Shown here in pieces: positions 1-5,136 of a stretch of DNA of 5,136 nucleotides. Both the position numbers and the translations under genes were made by a program. Origin of the DNA: Candidatus Odinarchaeota archaeon (GTDB taxonomy: Archaea; Asgardarchaeota; JAGGXT01); NCBI GenBank assembly GCA_021162905.1, contig JAGGXT010000092.1, positions 1 through 5,136 of the forward strand, read 5' to 3'. The notes under the pieces were generated by a model. The model had not been told where the DNA came from. It saw only the letters and a list, made by a program, of their open reading frames with translations, and searched no databases. Position 1 is the stretch's first letter. Each line of letters begins with the position of its first letter.

Positions 1-45
1 AAACTAGAAATAGGAAATGTGAATGTTAACTGGCTGGTGGTTTAA
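1..45 (+). CDS. C-terminal end of an upstream gene (partial, unidentified)
   Basis: Reading frame 1 is open from the window edge and ends KLEIGNVNVNWLVV followed by TAA at 43-45. The stop overlaps the ATG of the lipid synthase as TAATG, the usual layout of translationally coupled genes in one operon. Of the other two forward frames, one stops at once and the other stops at 27-29. Fourteen residues are too few to identify a family, so no function is proposed. The call rests on the open frame and the overlap only. Confidence 0.4.
   Translation, partial: KLEIGNVNVNWLVV
36..40 (+). promoter_or_regulatory. Shine-Dalgarno-like GGTGG for GGGPS
   Basis: GGTGG lies four bases before the ATG at 45 and can pair with the CACC core of the archaeal 16S 3' end. 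The same word at the same distance precedes the ATG at 2765, and GGTG lies six bases before the ATGs at 2538 (minus strand) and 3784. Confidence 0.55.
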
Positions 46-830
46 TGGATTTTAAAGGGAAGGTAATGAGATACATTGAAGAAAGATTAAGTGAAGATGG
101 CGCTTTACATTTCACTCTAATTGATCCCGATCCGCTTAAGATGAATGTAGAATCATCTGCAAAACTTGCAAGAATCGCAGCAGATTGCGGCACAGCTGCT
201 ATAATGGTAGGTGGATCAACAGCATTTGGAATAATAGATGATGTTGTTAAAACGATTAAGGAACATGTTCCAGAGATACCTGTTATCTTGTTTCCTGGGA
301 ATGTTAATGGCATAACTAGATTCTCTGACGCTGTTTTTTTCATGAGTCTGATAAACTCTAGTGATACATATTGGATTATTGAAGCGCAGATGCTGGCAGC
401 ATTTAATATAAAAATGTGCAGAATAGAACCAATTTCAATGGCATACATAATTGTTGAACCAGGAGGTACAGCAGGATATATAGGCCATGCCAGAGTAATA
501 CCTAGGAACAAACCTAAAATTGCTGCTGCGTTTGCATTAGCAGCAGAATACATTGGCTATAAAATGATATACTTGGAAGCTGGTTCTGGTGCAGAAAGCC
601 CAATCCCGCCATATTTTGTAAGAACTGTTAGAGAGGCTATTACAAGACCTTTAATTGTAGGTGGAGGAATAAGGGAGATTGAACAGGCAATCGAGATTGT
701 AAAAAGCGGTGCAGATATAATTGTACAAGGAACTTTCATTGAAAGAGAAAAAGAAAAGGGTATTAGAAAGTTGAAAAAAATTATAGAAGGCATAAAAAAC
801 GCTGCTCATGAAAGAAAAATTAAAAAATAA
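45..830 (+). CDS. Geranylgeranylglyceryl-phosphate synthase (GGGPS)
   Basis: This enzyme joins geranylgeranyl diphosphate to sn-glycerol-1-phosphate, forming the first ether bond of archaeal membrane lipids. It acts as a Mg-dependent TIM barrel at or near the membrane. The 261-residue protein shows the family motifs in order: HFTLIDPDP at 22-30 with metal-binding Asp27, VGGS at 55-58, LFPGN at 82-86, YLEAGSGA at 176-183, VGGGIR at 205-210, and GADIIVQGT at 222-230. The last four contribute to the phosphate-binding end of the barrel. Length and motif spellings fit group II GGGPS (found in many TACK archaea and some euryarchaea) rather than group I; this assignment is from memory of the family. 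The ATG at 45 is preceded by GGTGG at 36-40 and overlaps the stop of the upstream frame, so it is a coupled start. The gene ends 11 nt inside the convergent transporter gene. The tail after about residue 232 is rich in Lys and Glu. Confidence 0.95.
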   Translation: MDFKGKVMRYIEERLSEDGALHFTLIDPDPLKMNVESSAKLARIAADCGTAAIMVGGSTAFGIIDDVVKTIKEHVPEIPVILFPGNVNGITRFSDAVFFMSLINSSDTYWIIEAQMLAAFNIKMCRIEPISMAYIIVEPGGTAGYIGHARVIPRNKPKIAAAFALAAEYIGYKMIYLEAGSGAESPIPPYFVRTVREAITRPLIVGGGIREIEQAIEIVKSGADIIVQGTFIEREKEKGIRKLKKIIEGIKNAAHERKIKK

Positions 831-2538
831 AATCAATAGAGGCTATCCAAAGTACATGCAAGGCTATTATAAGGCCTTCGCCAGCTACGACACCACCTAA
901 TATTTGTTTATATTTATTTATTATTTCTTCAGTGCGGTTTTGAACATATTTTGAAATCAAACCACCTAATAGTAAAGGTATCGAATACGCAGGTGGAATC
1001 AGCAGACCAACCGCAAGTGTTATAGGAGATATATTTCTTTTATGAAGAGCTATTGAGGCAGTTATCCCTAATGATAAGAATCCTATAAGATATGGTATAC
1101 CAAACTCATCAGCAAATGGTAATGAGAATGTCGTCAGTTTCATGAGACTTAAAACTGTGAATCCCATAAGCTGAGCTGTAGGAGCTGGAAACTCATGAGT
1201 ACCAAAGCCAAAAGGGGGTTTAGAGAAAATGTATATTAGCCATGTTCCAATTATTGTGCCAAAGATAGTACCCGTTATTGCTGATTTTCGTATTGTTTCA
1301 TCATGAACTTTTAATCTTCGTCCTAAAACATATCGGCCAAGTAAAGTTACTGCCGCACTTTGAACAGCAGCCATTAACGTCATAAAGAGAATAACACTAG
1401 GGAAATTTATTGAGAAAAAGAGTATAGCTGGTACAGCTAATGCGTCTGTAATAAAACCAACAACCATACCTGTTTCGCTTGCAGCACGTGCTACAAAAAA
1501 GGCAGAAATAAGAACTAAAGGGAGGCCTATTAGTAACAGAAGAGGGGGGATCATTATCGGAAAGAAAAAGCCTGAAATTGAGAATAAGAATACACTAATT
1601 ACGTAGAAAAGTATTAATGACAACAGAGAGCATTTCCATTGCTTAAGAAATAAAAACAAATTTTCCTTCGAAAAGAAGACCTCTACTGCCTCTCGCTCTT
1701 CCTCTTCTAAACTTACTGTTTTTGATTCCTTATACGCAGACCAAGCATCTAAAGCTATCGTAGTGCCAACAATTCCTATTGCTGTATAAAATATTTCTGG
1801 ACGGGTTACATGTTCGCCAAAAAGTATGTGAGGATCCCGCTCAAGTAAAAACCAAACGAGCATAGAAAAAAGAGAACCTATGAAAATCAGAAGTGTTCTT
1901 CTAAAACCAGCAAAAAACCCTATTCCAACCAACATAGGGCTATTGCTAATACCAATATAAGGCGGAACCTCCGTGACCCCAACACCATGAGGTATTGTTC
2001 GCAAATCATATTTAGTCATTTGTGATAGCCCAATAATGGTACCCATGTACGCACCCGCGCCGAGCAAGCCAATCATCATATTTCTTTTAGTTTGGACGTT
2101 TCCCTCTGAAAGAGAAATTATATTTTGAACTTGAGCTTCTATTTGTGGCCAAGGTTCGTCCATGAATGCCTCCTTAGCAGGTTCCAACAGAAAAAGACCT
2201 GTAAAGCCGGTAAGCGCTATCATGGTAAAAATTAGAGGCATTGTTATTTCAACTTCGGGAATCCCTGCTAAGTGAGAGAACATAGAAATTGCAGGAAAAG
2301 CTACTAGGACACCAATATTCACAAGAACGGATGCCGTTGTTATTGTTATTACAATAACATTATCTTTAGGATCATACTTTCCAAATAAACTCAAAAGTAT
2401 AAAACCCAGTATCTCCATTCCAGTAACGACAACAAATCCTACTTTTAGTTCTATATATATTTGCAAGAAAGTATAAAGGAAGGCTAAGAAAAAACCTACT
2501 AGTAAAGTATGTAAATTAAGTACATCTCTCTTAGCCAT
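820..2538 (-). CDS. OPT-family oligopeptide/metal-chelate transporter
   Basis: This is a polytopic membrane protein that probably imports small peptides or metal-chelating compounds using an ion gradient, as OPT-family members do. The substrate cannot be told from sequence. Read from the ATG at 2538 it has 572 residues with about a dozen or more hydrophobic segments spread from residue 10 to the C-terminus. OPT-like features are ARAASETGM at 350-358, the PPAYSIPLLLGGL stretch at 515-527, and GGVVAGEGLIIAL at 548-560, where the family has a conserved GxxAGEgl motif in the last membrane region. EPAKEAFMDEPWP at 119-131 is a cytoplasmic-type loop typical of this branch. An acidic loop (SLEEEEREA, about 276-284) separates the two halves. 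The frame stays open to a GTG at 2550, but GTGGTG at 2550-2545 sits six bases before ATG 2538 like a ribosome site, so I prefer that start. It runs convergent with GGGPS, overlapping by 11 nt, and divergent from the profilin-like gene. Confidence 0.83.
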   Translation of the reverse strand: MAKRDVLNLHTLLVGFFLAFLYTFLQIYIELKVGFVVVTGMEILGFILLSLFGKYDPKDNVIVITITTASVLVNIGVLVAFPAISMFSHLAGIPEVEITMPLIFTMIALTGFTGLFLLEPAKEAFMDEPWPQIEAQVQNIISLSEGNVQTKRNMMIGLLGAGAYMGTIIGLSQMTKYDLRTIPHGVGVTEVPPYIGISNSPMLVGIGFFAGFRRTLLIFIGSLFSMLVWFLLERDPHILFGEHVTRPEIFYTAIGIVGTTIALDAWSAYKESKTVSLEEEEREAVEVFFSKENLFLFLKQWKCSLLSLILFYVISVFLFSISGFFFPIMIPPLLLLIGLPLVLISAFFVARAASETGMVVGFITDALAVPAILFFSINFPSVILFMTLMAAVQSAAVTLLGRYVLGRRLKVHDETIRKSAITGTIFGTIIGTWLIYIFSKPPFGFGTHEFPAPTAQLMGFTVLSLMKLTTFSLPFADEFGIPYLIGFLSLGITASIALHKRNISPITLAVGLLIPPAYSIPLLLGGLISKYVQNRTEEIINKYKQILGGVVAGEGLIIALHVLWIASIDFIF

Positions 2539-2544
2539 ATTATG

Positions 2545-2550
2545 CACCAC
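2545..2550 (-). promoter_or_regulatory. Shine-Dalgarno-like GTGGTG for the OPT transporter
   Basis: On the minus strand GTGGTG is followed by CATAAT and the ATG at 2538. The GGTG core is six bases from the start. The two GTG codons that could extend the protein to 2550 lie within this site, which argues against using them as starts. Confidence 0.5.
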
Positions 2551-2580: not shown

Positions 2581-2755
2581 AAGGCACAGATGAAAACAGA
2601 GCAATAATAGTAACAAAACTATTTACTTTTTCATCTTTATTTTTTTCGATACCTACGATCAAAATTCTTTTTGTACATTTCAATAGTTAATTGAGTCAAT
2701 AAATAAAATTATTAGTATGGAATTATTAAACAATAATATAAGTCTATTCTTAGGC

Positions 2756-2760
2756 GGTGG
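2756..2760 (+). promoter_or_regulatory. Shine-Dalgarno-like GGTGG deciding the start at 2765
   Basis: GGTGG is followed by TTGT and ATG at 2765, the same word and spacing as for GGGPS. It supports the internal ATG over the ATG at 2717, which has no such site and would add 16 residues (starting MELLNNN) that look like translated leader. Confidence 0.55.
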
Positions 2761-2764
2761 TTGT

Positions 2765-3130
2765 ATGGGTGTGGCAGATGTTGTTAATGAGATTATGGCA
2801 AAGCACGTACAGATTGGTGCTGTAGTAATTTTCAGAAATGATGGAACAATAGTCCATTCCGTAGGGCAATGGCAATTGAATCCAAATGAAATTCTTGATG
2901 TTATTAAGAATAAACAACCATCAATAATAATTCAAGGTGTAAAATATTCTATTTTTACAAACACCGAAGATTCCTTTATAGCTTCTAATTTGCAAGGATT
3001 GGGTCATGTTATAGGCGCTGCGATAAATGATAAGGGATGGATTATTGTTTACGCTGGCAAAGACGCTGATAAAGCGGAGATATTGAGAACATTGATTGGC
3101 GCTTCCTCGAAACTGAAAAATCTTGTGTAG
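2765..3130 (+). CDS. Small profilin-like protein
   Basis: A 121-residue single-domain protein with no signal peptide or membrane segment. Its predicted order of elements is: helix (VADVVNEIMAKH), two strands around a turn (VQIGAVVIFRNDGTIVHSVGQW), helix (NPNEILDVIKNK), four strands from about residue 50 to 99, and a long C-terminal helix (DKAEILRTLIGASSKL). This is the order of the profilin fold. IQGVKYSIF, then a Gly-rich turn (NLQGLGHVIG) and WIIVYAG, line up by eye with LGGTKYMVI, the GPGGVTIKK region and LIIGIYD of eukaryotic profilin, including the G-x-K-Y word. Eukaryotic profilins bind actin monomers, and related proteins occur in some archaea. Whether this one binds an actin homologue is unknown. 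The main alternative is a Roadblock/LC7 domain, which shares a related alpha-beta topology but lacks the G-x-K-Y word. The gene stands alone, with a hairpin after its stop. Confidence 0.6.
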   Translation: MGVADVVNEIMAKHVQIGAVVIFRNDGTIVHSVGQWQLNPNEILDVIKNKQPSIIIQGVKYSIFTNTEDSFIASNLQGLGHVIGAAINDKGWIIVYAGKDADKAEILRTLIGASSKLKNLV

Positions 3131-3270: not shown

Positions 3271-3405
3271 TGGGGCCGCTGGGAGTTGAACCCAGGCTAG
3301 CAGGTCTCTCCTTCGCGCTCCAGAGGCTCGTCATCCTAGTGTCAGCAGACCTGCTTTTTAAAATCCTCTGGAGCCTGCCGTGCTACCTGGCTACACCACG
3401 GCCCC
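3271..3405 (-). tRNA. tRNA-Trp (anticodon CCA) with a 62-nt intron
   Basis: The exons are 3405-3368 (38 nt) and 3305-3271 (35 nt), giving a 73-nt mature tRNA. The acceptor stem GGGGCCG/CGGCCCC is fully paired with discriminator A73; CCA is not encoded. The D arm is GTGT-AGCCAGGTA-GCAC with A14, G15, G18, G19 and A21. The anticodon stem GCAGG/CCTGC is perfect around loop CTCCAGA (CCA at 3371-3369). The variable loop is TAGC, and the T arm is CTGGG-TTCAACT-CCCAG. The intron lies between positions 37 and 38. Splice motif: CTCC (32-35) pairs with GGAG (3311-3308), with an AGA bulge on each strand cut as AG^A, so it is a helix-bulge motif with no clear intron-side helix. All stems are GC-rich, as in thermophiles. 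It follows the permuted 5S gene by 10 nt and is probably cotranscribed with it. Confidence 0.96.
3306..3367 (-). ncRNA. tRNA-Trp intron with box C/D-type guide elements
   Basis: The intron holds an exact box D' (CTGA, 3345-3342) and a near-consensus box C' (ATGACGA, 3334-3328) seven bases apart. The guide upstream of D' (AGCAGGTCT, 3355-3347) pairs over nine bases with the end of the intron and the start of exon 2. The fifth base before D' faces C39. The 12 nt after C' include CCTCTGGAGC (3326-3317), which pairs over ten bases with G31 through the first three intron bases. If the degenerate CGAA at 3315-3312 is box D, the fifth base faces C34. Positions 34 and 39 are the two sites known to be 2'-O-methylated under guidance of the tRNA-Trp intron in Haloferax, so this looks like the same system. 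Box C cannot be found with confidence: neither ATTTTAA (3364-3358) nor CAGAGGA across the splice site is a good match. Both guides span exon-intron borders, so they would act before splicing. Confidence 0.75.
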
Positions 3406-3415
3406 AAAAATGAAT

Positions 3416-3572
3416 GATAGCAGCACCGTTCCGTGGTCGAAATGGGAACGGGTGTTTCCCCTTGCCTATGACCGTCGGCAAAGCCGACAGCCATCCGGGC
3501 TTCCCGTCGGCTCTCGCACGACAGTACAACCCGGACCGCGCAAGGGCTTAACTTTCACGCGGTGCTGCTATC
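3416..3572 (-). other. Precursor of the permuted 5S rRNA: outer helix and bulge-helix-bulge
   Basis: GATAGCAGCACCG (3572-3560) and CGGTGCTGCTATC (3428-3416) form a perfect 13-bp outer helix. Inside it CGTG (3559-3556) pairs with CACG (3435-3432) to make the 4-bp central helix. A 3-nt bulge GAA (3431-3429) lies on the 3' strand next to the outer helix, and a 3-nt bulge AAA (3555-3553) on the 5' strand next to the inner helix. The inner helix is GTT/GAC (3552-3550 with 3438-3436, one G-U). This is the canonical archaeal splicing-endonuclease substrate, cut between the second and third bulge bases: AA^A and GA^A. The product is a 124-nt circle plus a joined leader-trailer. The central helix uses bases that form helix III in mature 5S, so the motif exists only in the precursor. 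Confidence 0.85.
3430..3553 (-). rRNA. Circularly permuted 5S rRNA
   Basis: The minus strand carries all conserved parts of an archaeal 5S rRNA, but the 3' half (3553-3483, 71 nt) comes before the 5' half (3479-3430, 50 nt), joined by TTT (3482-3480). The 5' half starts GCCGACGGTCATAGG and contains CCCGTTCCCATTTCGACCACGG (helix III and loop C) near its end. The 3' half starts AGTTAAGCCC and includes GTACTG, TGCGAGAGCC and GGGAA as in other archaeal 5S. Helix I GCCGAC/GTCGGC is capped by the TTT loop. Helix II is GCAAGGG/CCCTTGC, helix III CCGT/ACGG, helix V TCCGGG/CCCGGA, and helix IV GTCG/CGAC. The normal free ends are thus fused, and the new ends fall in the segment between helices III and II. 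Without the linker the length is 121 nt, normal for the family. All helices are intact, so it does not look like a pseudogene. The mature form may be circular, or may be opened in the TTT loop. Confidence 0.92.
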
Positions 3573-3739: not shown

Positions 3740-3783
3740 AAAGTTTAAATGAATAAGATATGAAAGGAGAAATGGTGCAAACC

Positions 3784-4740
3784 ATGTTATCTGCCATCGA
3801 AGAAATAGTTTCTGTAACGAGAAAAGCGGGATACGTGCTATATTATAACTTTCAAGGTGGAAAATACTGTTTTGATGTATTTGCAAAACGTGATAATAGA
3901 TTAATTGCTATAAAATATATTCCAAATATAGATTGTTTTGATGAAGAACTAGCAAATTCCCTTAAGTTGATAGCTCTAGTCTTTAGAGCTCTTCCATTAA
4001 TAGTTGGTGAAAAAACTCGACATTCTAGACTTGAAACAGGCGTTATTTACTTTAGATATGAAATCCCTGTTGTTAACTTTGAAACTTTTAAACGGATGAT
4101 TTTGCATGAAGAGTATCCCATGGTATACACGAGACGTGGTGGCTATTACGTAAAGATTGATAGTATCTTACTAAAAGAGTTACGTGAAAAGAAAGGAATG
4201 TCCCTAGGAGAACTGGCAGATAAGGTTGGTGTTTCTCGAAGAACAATTTATGAATATGAGAGAAATACAATGGATGCCACGCTAGAAACTGCTATTAAAC
4301 TTGAGGAATTTTTCAACGCCTCTATAGTAGTACCTATTCCTTTATTGAACTTAAAGGTTATAGAGATCGATAAGAGAAAATTATCTACTACTATGAGGGT
4401 GCCAGAAAATCCACTATTAAAGTTACTTTACTCTACTCTCCGCAGAATTGGGTTGAAAGTTATATTTTTCAAGTATACTCCATTTGATGCACTATCAATA
4501 GCCGAAGAAAAAGAAATACTATCAGGTGTTGATGATAAAGAAAAAAAATCCGAACTATGGACAAAAATAGAATTGGTGAATGAATTTTCAAAAATATCCG
4601 AGAGAGCAGCTCTTTTTGTAGTTAAGGAGAATTATAAAAAAATAGATGTAGAACTTGAGCATGTAAAGATTGTCACCTCCTCTCAGTTAAAACATATAAA
4701 ATCAATAAAGCATTTTATGGAACTAATAGCTAATGAATAA
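3784..4740 (+). CDS. Archaeal HTH-type (Cro/C1) transcriptional regulator
   Basis: This is a DNA-binding protein of the conserved archaeal family called putative HTH-type transcriptional regulatory protein (HAMAP MF_00584 type). From ATG 3784 it has 318 residues. The N-terminal domain (1-125) carries family words: CFDVFAKRD (29-37), AIKYIPNID (42-50), ALPLIVGEKTR (69-79), GVIYFRYEIP (86-95) and VYTRRGGYYVKID (114-126). A Cro/C1 helix-turn-helix follows at about 129-178, with LREKKGMSLGELADKVGVSRRTIYEYER and recognition helix SRRTIYEYE at 151-159. A C-terminal domain (about 205-318) keeps the PFDALS and AALFVV words of the family. Targets are unknown. GGTG at 3774-3777 lies six bases before ATG 3784, which also fits the family's N-terminal length. 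In-frame ATGs at 3760 and 3772 would add eight or four residues, and 3760 could be a leaderless start. The gene ends 10 nt from the convergent Trm1 gene. Confidence 0.9.
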   Translation: MLSAIEEIVSVTRKAGYVLYYNFQGGKYCFDVFAKRDNRLIAIKYIPNIDCFDEELANSLKLIALVFRALPLIVGEKTRHSRLETGVIYFRYEIPVVNFETFKRMILHEEYPMVYTRRGGYYVKIDSILLKELREKKGMSLGELADKVGVSRRTIYEYERNTMDATLETAIKLEEFFNASIVVPIPLLNLKVIEIDKRKLSTTMRVPENPLLKLLYSTLRRIGLKVIFFKYTPFDALSIAEEKEILSGVDDKEKKSELWTKIELVNEFSKISERAALFVVKENYKKIDVELEHVKIVTSSQLKHIKSIKHFMELIANE

Positions 4741-4750
4741 TAAATAATAA

Positions 4751-5136
4751 TCATCCTTTTTGGAATATGCTTAATATTGTCCCATAATCAGCATCTGTTT
4801 TAAATCCCTTTTTCAATGAATGTACTCTTGCTGCTTTAAACCCAAGATTTTTTAATTGGTTAATAATATAATCTATTTTCTTTTCAGCTTTTTTTGTAAA
4901 AGAGGCTAAAGTGTCTGTTCTATAAAAAAATGGAGTATTTATTTCCATTTCTTTTTTGTATCTTATCAAGAAATTCTCCATTTCTTTATCTCTCTGATTT
5001 TTCACCTGATTTAGAAGAACATCCAGAAAAGATAAGTCGGCTAATTTTTTTAGGTATAGCGCACCAATGGTTTTCAAGTTTGCAGATTTGCAATAATTAC
5101 ATAACGACTTATGTATAATATATGATGTTGTAAACC
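4751..5136 (-). CDS. trm1: tRNA (guanine-26-N2)-dimethyltransferase Trm1, C-terminal part (partial)
   Basis: Trm1 uses S-adenosylmethionine to methylate N2 of G26 in many tRNAs. Only the last 127 residues lie here; the frame continues off the right edge, and the methyltransferase domain is outside the window. Visible features are CNYC (codons 5101-5090), a likely half of the zinc-binding cysteine set that precedes this point in the family, then TIGALYLKKLADLSFL, matching the GPLWxGxLxDxxF block, then NTPFFYRTDTLASF, and KNLGFKAARVHSLKKGFKTDA, which matches the family's C-terminal (GFxASRTHxxxxGxKTDA) signature. A TTG at 5077 could mimic a start, but coding similarity continues upstream of it. 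GPLW reads GALY here, a divergent spelling. The stop is TGA. The gene is convergent with the HTH regulator, and the tRNA-Trp in this window has G26, so it is a possible substrate. Confidence 0.85.
   Translation of the reverse strand, partial: FTTSYIIHKSLCNYCKSANLKTIGALYLKKLADLSFLDVLLNQVKNQRDKEMENFLIRYKKEMEINTPFFYRTDTLASFTKKAEKKIDYIINQLKNLGFKAARVHSLKKGFKTDADYGTILSIFQKG

Follow-up and report, generated by a model that had tools for sequence, protein, structure and literature searches.

The window, a stretch of 5,136 nucleotides, contains protein-coding genes on either side of a minus-strand 5S rRNA gene and an intron-bearing tRNA gene (Table 1). Its GGGP synthase marks the window as Asgard, the nearest named homologue (75% identical) belonging to a Candidatus Asgardarchaeia archaeon. 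The tRNA-Trp gene is on the same strand as the 5S rRNA gene, 10 bases downstream of the outer helix of the latter, and its insert contains C/D-box-like motifs, as read by eye. ARAGORN missed this intron-bearing tRNA when run on the window, and its detection of tRNAs at 2/25 loci near permuted 5S genes therefore says little about 5S-tRNA synteny.

Table 1. Features of the window, in order of position
Feature	Position	Strand	Basis or remarks
GGGP synthase (PcrB family)	45-830		
OPT-family transporter	820-2550		
137-aa protein without Pfam hit	2717-3130		
tRNA gene, reads as tRNA-Trp (CCA), with anticodon-loop intron	3271..3405	-	Rfam tRNA 49.4 bits, ~66-nt insert; anticodon read by eye
Outer helix, 3' arm CGGTGCTGCTATC	3416..3428	-	Sequence; 13 contiguous pairs with 5' arm
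3' bulge GAA	3429..3431	-	Predicted EndA cut between 3430 and 3429; 3430 predicted to be joined to 3553
Predicted mature 124-nt circular 5S rRNA	3430..3553	-	Computed circle size; profile gain on splicing
5S 5' half GCCGACGGTCATAG ... CACGGA, second in gene	3430..3479	-	Rfam, covariance model, fold, profile
Central helix, 3' strand CACG	3432..3435	-	Sequence
UUU loop fusing natural 3' and 5' ends, capping helix I	3480..3482	-	Sequence; folds
5S 3' half AGTTAAGC ... GGCTGTCGGC, first in gene	3483..3553	-	Rfam, covariance model, fold, profile
5' bulge AAA	3553..3555	-	Predicted EndA cut between 3554 and 3553
Central 4-bp helix, 5' strand CGTG	3556..3559	-	Sequence
Outer helix, 5' arm GATAGCAGCACCG	3560..3572	-	Sequence; 13 contiguous pairs with 3' arm
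Helix-turn-helix regulator	3760-4740		
Trm1-family methyltransferase, end of gene	4751-5134		

The 5S rRNA gene (minus strand, 3572-3416) has its halves swapped, the 3' half preceding the 5' half. The natural 5S ends are joined via UUU, and the new ends lie within a 13-bp helix and a canonical bulge-helix-bulge (BHB) motif. The order along the minus strand is outer arm, CGTG, AAA, 3' half, UUU, 5' half, CACG, GAA and outer arm, and the BHB bulges overlap the terminal bases of both 5S halves. An earlier sequence-only reading of this DNA had proposed the permuted order with ends fused via TTT, together with the 13-bp helix and the BHB (CGTG/CACG, bulges AAA and GAA); order, helix and motif were recovered base for base. 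Archaeal EndA cuts such motifs between bulge bases 2 and 3, and applying this rule in silico joins A3430 to A3553, giving a 124-nt circle that reads CACGGA+AGTTAAGC.

The Rfam 5S model (RF00001) produces two half hits on the window (25.5 and 22.6 bits), both below the cut-off of 38, which is the split and weak pattern that the sequence-only reading expected of a linear model. A covariance model of ten permuted relatives, built without the window and without Baldrarchaeum (see below), matches 3429-3559(-) over its full length (129.6 bits, E 5.3e-28), an independent confirmation of the permuted order. To score the rejoined product, a profile was built from 23 conventional 5S genes belonging to the phylum and used in place of the Rfam model. 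The window gene as written scores 25.3 bits (model 49-115) and the predicted spliced circle 65.4 bits (model 4-115), a nearly full-length match, which agrees with the earlier claim that the predicted A3430/A3553 junction gives the conserved 5S sequence. For 73 unique class A/B circles (classes defined below; circles outside them and duplicates were left out), in silico splicing improves the profile score in 71, raises the median from 24.6 to 45.0 bits, and increases the number of full-length matches from 0 to 59. The folding energy of the precursor is -86.6 kcal/mol (z -7.1), and the rejoined 121-mer, opened at the UUU loop, takes the standard 5S shape (-62.5, z -5.2). In each case 0/200 shuffles are as low, and these controls rule out chance folding. 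Ordinary tandem 5S genes are also ruled out, since only 3 nt lie between the halves here, and in aligned relatives the gap is likewise a short loop.

A degenerate pattern for the permuted order has one match among genome contigs, in the Asgard archaeon Ca. Baldrarchaeum yapensis (L001), and 0 matches in viral contigs. The break is the same in the Baldrarchaeum gene, which differs in its helix letters (GGTGCAACGCCG/CGGCGTTGCACC) and in its loop, ACAU instead of UUU; the two halves of this gene are the sole 5S hits (E <= 10) in that genome. L001 also contains, at 4589-4857 (+), sub-threshold matches to HgcG (28.2 bits) and Pyrobac-1 (36.1 bits). The survey of relatives spans the 227 species genomes of the phylum of Baldrarchaeum, which we take to be the Asgards; the best match among them is 58% identical, and the window species is not one of them. 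A permuted 5S gene is present in 138 of the 227 genomes, while 59 contain conventional genes only and 30 contain neither form. The permuted gene is the commonest 5S state of the phylum, and the arrangement suggested for the window is indeed shared by many of its relatives.

The permuted model detects 132 of these genomes at E <= 1.3e-6, and laxer filters applied to the 36 genomes with neither form add six (G021, G108, G118, G119, G122 and G125), the gene in G021 being truncated by a contig end. Among re-scored loci, the counted permuted genes reach at least 43 bits and the conventional-order ones at most 34 bits; G084, with a 37.1-bit match to the permuted model and neither form otherwise, was left uncounted. 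Rfam 5S hits over the cut-off, regarded as conventional genes, occur in 64/227 genomes, five of which also contain a permuted gene, and the remaining 133 of the 138 permuted genomes contain no such hit. These include six genomes with one contig as long as the rounded genome (G008, G049, G050, G051, G121 and G174). Where both forms were recorded, the ‘conventional’ hit of G030 overlaps its own permuted gene, and the conventional copies of G013, G041, G110 and G134 are probably contamination. By eye, the copies in G041 (L150), G110 (L151) and G134 (L152) are un-Asgard in look, and they gave no spacing reading (see below); those of G110 and G134 are presumably bacterial 5S, judging from the motif. 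In 30/227 genomes (e.g. G005, G018, G024, G044), no counted permuted gene and no conventional 5S over the cut-off was found despite the laxer filters. Incompleteness, larger introns or stronger divergence may account for these, and some may hide intron-bearing genes.

Conservation of the flanking motif was assessed in 133 permuted rows (the window and 132 genes, from 130 of the 132 genomes found with the strict threshold), which reduce to 129 unique flank sets; the G015 and G013 genes and the six genomes added by the laxer filters are absent from these statistics, and six conventional-order loci (L150, L153-L157; 8 rows) were removed from the permuted rows. The best BHB of each flank set was picked by a strict ungapped geometry, the 5S consensus playing no part in the choice. 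Compared with 2561 swapped-flank pairs, a control that contains pairs of relatives, a central helix of 4/4 pairs with an outer helix of at least 4 occurs in 65/129 unique flank sets (control, 4.0%), and a central helix of at least 3 with an outer helix of at least 4 in 82/129 (control, 12.5%), the mean outer helix being 6.4 against 2.4. The latter combination is missed by 47/129 sets under this geometry. Many of these belong, by eye, to the G007-G029 group, in which the 5' arm is interrupted by a hairpin, and others are without a clear helix. In loci of this group (L020, L060, L064, L073 and others), the hairpin (e.g. CATCTGGATGCGTTCCAGATG) lies within the 5' arm of the outer helix, and beyond it a distal helix CCTAGTAAGG/CCTTACTAGG is seen by eye, a three-way-junction variant of the precursor.

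Registering the genes by 5S sequence alone gives 81 class A/B rows, or 65 unique genes after removal of 16 duplicates; 52/133 permuted rows fall outside these classes by 5S sequence, a few merely from loss of flanks at contig ends. In the 65 unique genes, the first 8 outer pairs are paired in 83.3% of cases (class A 98.9%, class B 80.1%). Pairing drops to 34-49% when the 3' arm is slid by 1-3, and shuffling of partners gives a mean of 48.7% and a maximum of 55.0% in 1000 shuffles. The outer helix thus covaries in these genes. Class A (11 unique genes, including the window) has the central helix CGTG/CACG and bulges AAA or AGA with GAA or GAT, and its cut gives CACGGA+AGTTAAG. Class B (54 unique genes) has the central helix CCGN/N'CGG and variants, with bulges AAG/AAA in 39/54, and its cut gives CGGAA+GTTAAG; the fourth central pair is non-standard in 11/54 and the second in 2/54. 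The cuts of the two classes are one base apart, yet the product is identical. Among 74 unique genes with an outer helix of at least 5 and a central helix of at least 3 of 4, the cut rule gives a 16-nt spacing in 65; the other nine comprise five with 17 nt and four with 14, 22 or no anchor. The unique genes in all these statistics are kin, so that their counts are non-independent. The same 16-nt spacing is read in 6/10 conventional-order 5S rows, the other four giving no reading. The cut rule usually restores both the conserved 5S sequence and its spacing.

The gene arrangement is established by sequence and by comparison among genomes, and circularization by EndA and RtcB is the best-supported mechanism predicted for the transcript. 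It is highly probable that the window contains an Asgard-type permuted 5S gene, the transcript of which is cut at the BHB by EndA and ligated, likely by RtcB, into the 124-nt circle. The flanks of the precursor would pair, holding the central helix CGTG/CACG in place; EndA would cleave both bulges and RtcB would ligate A3430 to A3553, whereupon the freed ACGG would re-pair with CCGU to form 5S helix III, a sequence of events that would couple splicing to 5S folding. The loop, which is UUU in this gene and frequently a UNCG tetraloop in its relatives, would keep helix I closed, making further end trimming unneeded, and the RNA would join the 50S subunit as a circle. A simple stem search finds a putative helix I hairpin with a UNCG loop in 40/73 circles, in keeping with natural ends that stay sealed throughout. 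Of the 227 genomes surveyed, which do not include that of the window, 226 contain the EndA catalytic domain, usually as two matches, and 202 contain RtcB.

Such a permuted and functional gene might instead give rise to a mature 5S rRNA that is linear, its ends being produced in the helix III loop by EndA or other nucleases and left unligated, or its circle being re-opened elsewhere. Permuted tmRNA is described as functioning in two separate pieces (excerpts of PMC10085705), Pyrococcus 23S rRNA as circularized and later re-opened (excerpts of PMC12918454), and the ligated junction of the Asgard 5S rRNA is a prediction from gene sequences. A linear product is nonetheless unlikely, because the covarying geometry keeps both cuts where joining restores the 5S sequence, with the 16-nt spacing described above, and because RtcB is present in most of the genomes. 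The break also lies within helix III, where open ends would be expected to fray a conserved region. That a linear permuted 5S rRNA keeps the flanking helix as an expansion segment is considerably less probable still. The helix is stable in the precursor fold, and a large insertion is on record in one archaeal 5S rRNA (PMC7530397, in the part available); judging from the folds, however, a retained helix would lie within helix III and hold CACG away from its 5S partner, and two 3-nt bulges at constant positions make no sense in an expansion segment. Least probable of all is that the contig was wrongly joined or that this is a second, degenerate copy beside a normal 5S gene, since, prone as metagenome contigs are to misjoining, the permutation recurs throughout the phylum, including the six genomes with a genome-long contig, the helix letters covary, and the permuted genomes contain no conventional copy over the cut-off other than the half-gene of G030 and four apparent contaminants.

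Cleavage and ligation of the permuted transcript into a circular 5S rRNA can be compared with several known systems. Permuted tRNA genes, in work attributed to Soma in 2007, reportedly mature via a circular intermediate, and the permuted-tRNA circle is re-opened to restore the ends. The Asgard 5S rRNA likewise combines a permuted gene with a circle, which is predicted in its case; in contrast to permuted tRNA, a short loop seals its natural ends, and no re-opening signal was seen. The Rfam family mtPerm-5S (RF02547), a permuted mitochondrial 5S rRNA, resembles the Asgard genes in being a 5S rRNA gene in permuted order, and we know of no BHB or circle associated with it. The mtPerm-5S model, run with no mitochondrial positive control, has matches in 0/10 genomes with an archaeal permuted gene at E <= 10, and at E <= 1 the family is absent from the matches listed for the window (one weaker unnamed match of the same clan was omitted). 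Membership in mtPerm-5S is rejected on the basis of the ten archaeal genomes. One article, in the part available, names 5S rRNA among the RNAs with known circular permutations (PMC10085705), and we take the mitochondrial case to be the one meant.

Circular archaeal 16S and 23S (pre-)rRNAs are, as is proposed here for 5S, formed by BHB excision and ligation, and circular 23S rRNA has been inferred in ribosomes of archaea; in contrast to the Asgard 5S gene, their genes have the normal order and they are excised from a longer precursor (excerpts of PMC12918454 and PMC7758197). Circular 16S and 23S transcripts have been reported in Asgards, and the background section of the same article states that circularization in pure cultures was shown for 16S and 23S ‘but not 5S rRNAs’ (excerpts of PMC12918454). 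Circular reads of 5S rRNA from Halobacterium and Sulfolobus are likewise circular forms of an archaeal 5S rRNA, but they have variable ends, are possibly degradation products according to their authors, and are described in the available passages with no mention of a permuted gene (PMC12558985).

The closest precedent is the permuted, circular SRP RNA of Thermoproteus. In T. tenax and T. uzoniensis, an essential non-coding RNA similarly has its halves swapped, with a BHB formed by leader and trailer, and there too the permutation explained a ‘missing’ RNA gene and processing by EndA and RtcB was proposed (excerpts of PMC4731332). The two cases differ in the RNA concerned, in the archaeal phylum, and in extent, with two named species against 138 genomes (same excerpts of PMC4731332). 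They differ also in the kind of evidence: circle reads were obtained for the permuted SRP RNA of T. tenax and its BHB was cleaved in vitro, whereas the Asgard 5S circle is predicted from genes (PMC4731332, in part). Two features of the T. tenax SRP type are found in the Asgard 5S gene: a permuted order with fused natural ends, and a BHB in which 3-nt bulges flank a central helix of 4 bp.

5S rRNA is among the most conserved RNAs known, and its gene is now located, in permuted form, in 138/227 genomes of the phylum. In a study of complete Asgard genomes, the 5S rRNA ‘could not be predicted’ according to the authors (PMC8813620, in the passages available), and linear models miss the Asgard gene because it is permuted. 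5S genes are listed for two Asgard species elsewhere (PMC9723677, in part), consistent with the conventional minority described here. No report of a permuted or BHB-circularized archaeal 5S gene was found in the parts of the open-licence literature that were searched, preprints excluded. The prediction is that, in a large part of the archaeal group nearest to eukaryotes, enzymes of tRNA splicing produce a circular ribosomal RNA, and how rRNA processing was altered in the lineage leading to eukaryotes becomes directly testable from existing RNA reads.

The distribution of gene forms was compared with an RtcB tree that takes in 56 genomes, 39 with the permuted and 17 with the conventional form, the rows of which are a selection from the matches listed, that of G013 probably deriving from a contaminant contig. 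The midpoint root has permuted genes on either side of it, and the gene forms require at least 6 label changes, 3 of which are forced by well-supported branches, with no split that a single change would explain. One old permutation with reversions, or repeated permutation at a favoured site, are both possible. A 5S gene in conventional order with a predicted 23-nt BHB intron at the permutation site is present on contig C117 of G013 (L176, 8277-8414, minus strand). The intron region reads CACG GA^A CAGTCT ATCG AGACTG CGTG AA^A GTTAAAC, a BHB as in the window that is closed by a loop. The fold of the whole L176 5S is no better than that of shuffles (z -0.9, 33/200 as low), although the lowest-energy fold does contain the predicted hairpin. 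No report of an intron in an archaeal 5S gene was found in the same kind of search, covering parts of the open-licence literature and excluding preprints.

The contig carrying L176 is probably Aenigmatarchaeota-like and a contaminant within G013. In each of the 15 other genomes compared, the best match to its RNA polymerase B'' shows 44-47% identity, and G013 contains no second copy. Among the best 120 of 3567 homologues, 10/13 that name an organism are from Aenigmarchaeota/Aenigmatarchaeota (71-78%), and the other three are from an unclassified archaeon (74%), Heimdallarchaeota (72%) and Archaeoglobales (72%). Tandem duplication and trimming of a 5S gene with a BHB intron would yield a permuted gene. 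For the permuted SRP genes, an origin from a variant with simple BHB introns was deemed plausible (PMC4731332, in part), and the intron-bearing L176 fits this proposal that permuted genes grow from BHB-intron genes. On balance, and by a narrow preference, we favour a history in which the ribosomes of most Asgards contain a 5S rRNA that is a covalently closed circle, produced by the tRNA-splicing machinery from the permuted gene. In this history the permuted state is old in the phylum, the conventional form has returned several times, and the starting point was a 5S gene interrupted at this very position by a BHB intron, of the kind surviving in a DPANN archaeon.

Upstream of the 5S loci, TATA-like motifs are mildly enriched, with 29/101 matches over 131 loci starting 40-49 nt before the start of the model. 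Some genomes contain more than one copy of the gene, including two permuted 5S genes in tandem with differing outer helices in G054 (L024), two dispersed permuted copies in G008 (L022, L023), and three conventional copies in tandem in G087 (L154). Extra sequence of ~30-60 nt, in the form of expansion segments, is present in several permuted 5S genes (L021, L117, L120-L124, L126-L128, L133, L134, L136-L138 and L148), with predicted circles of 149-180 nt.
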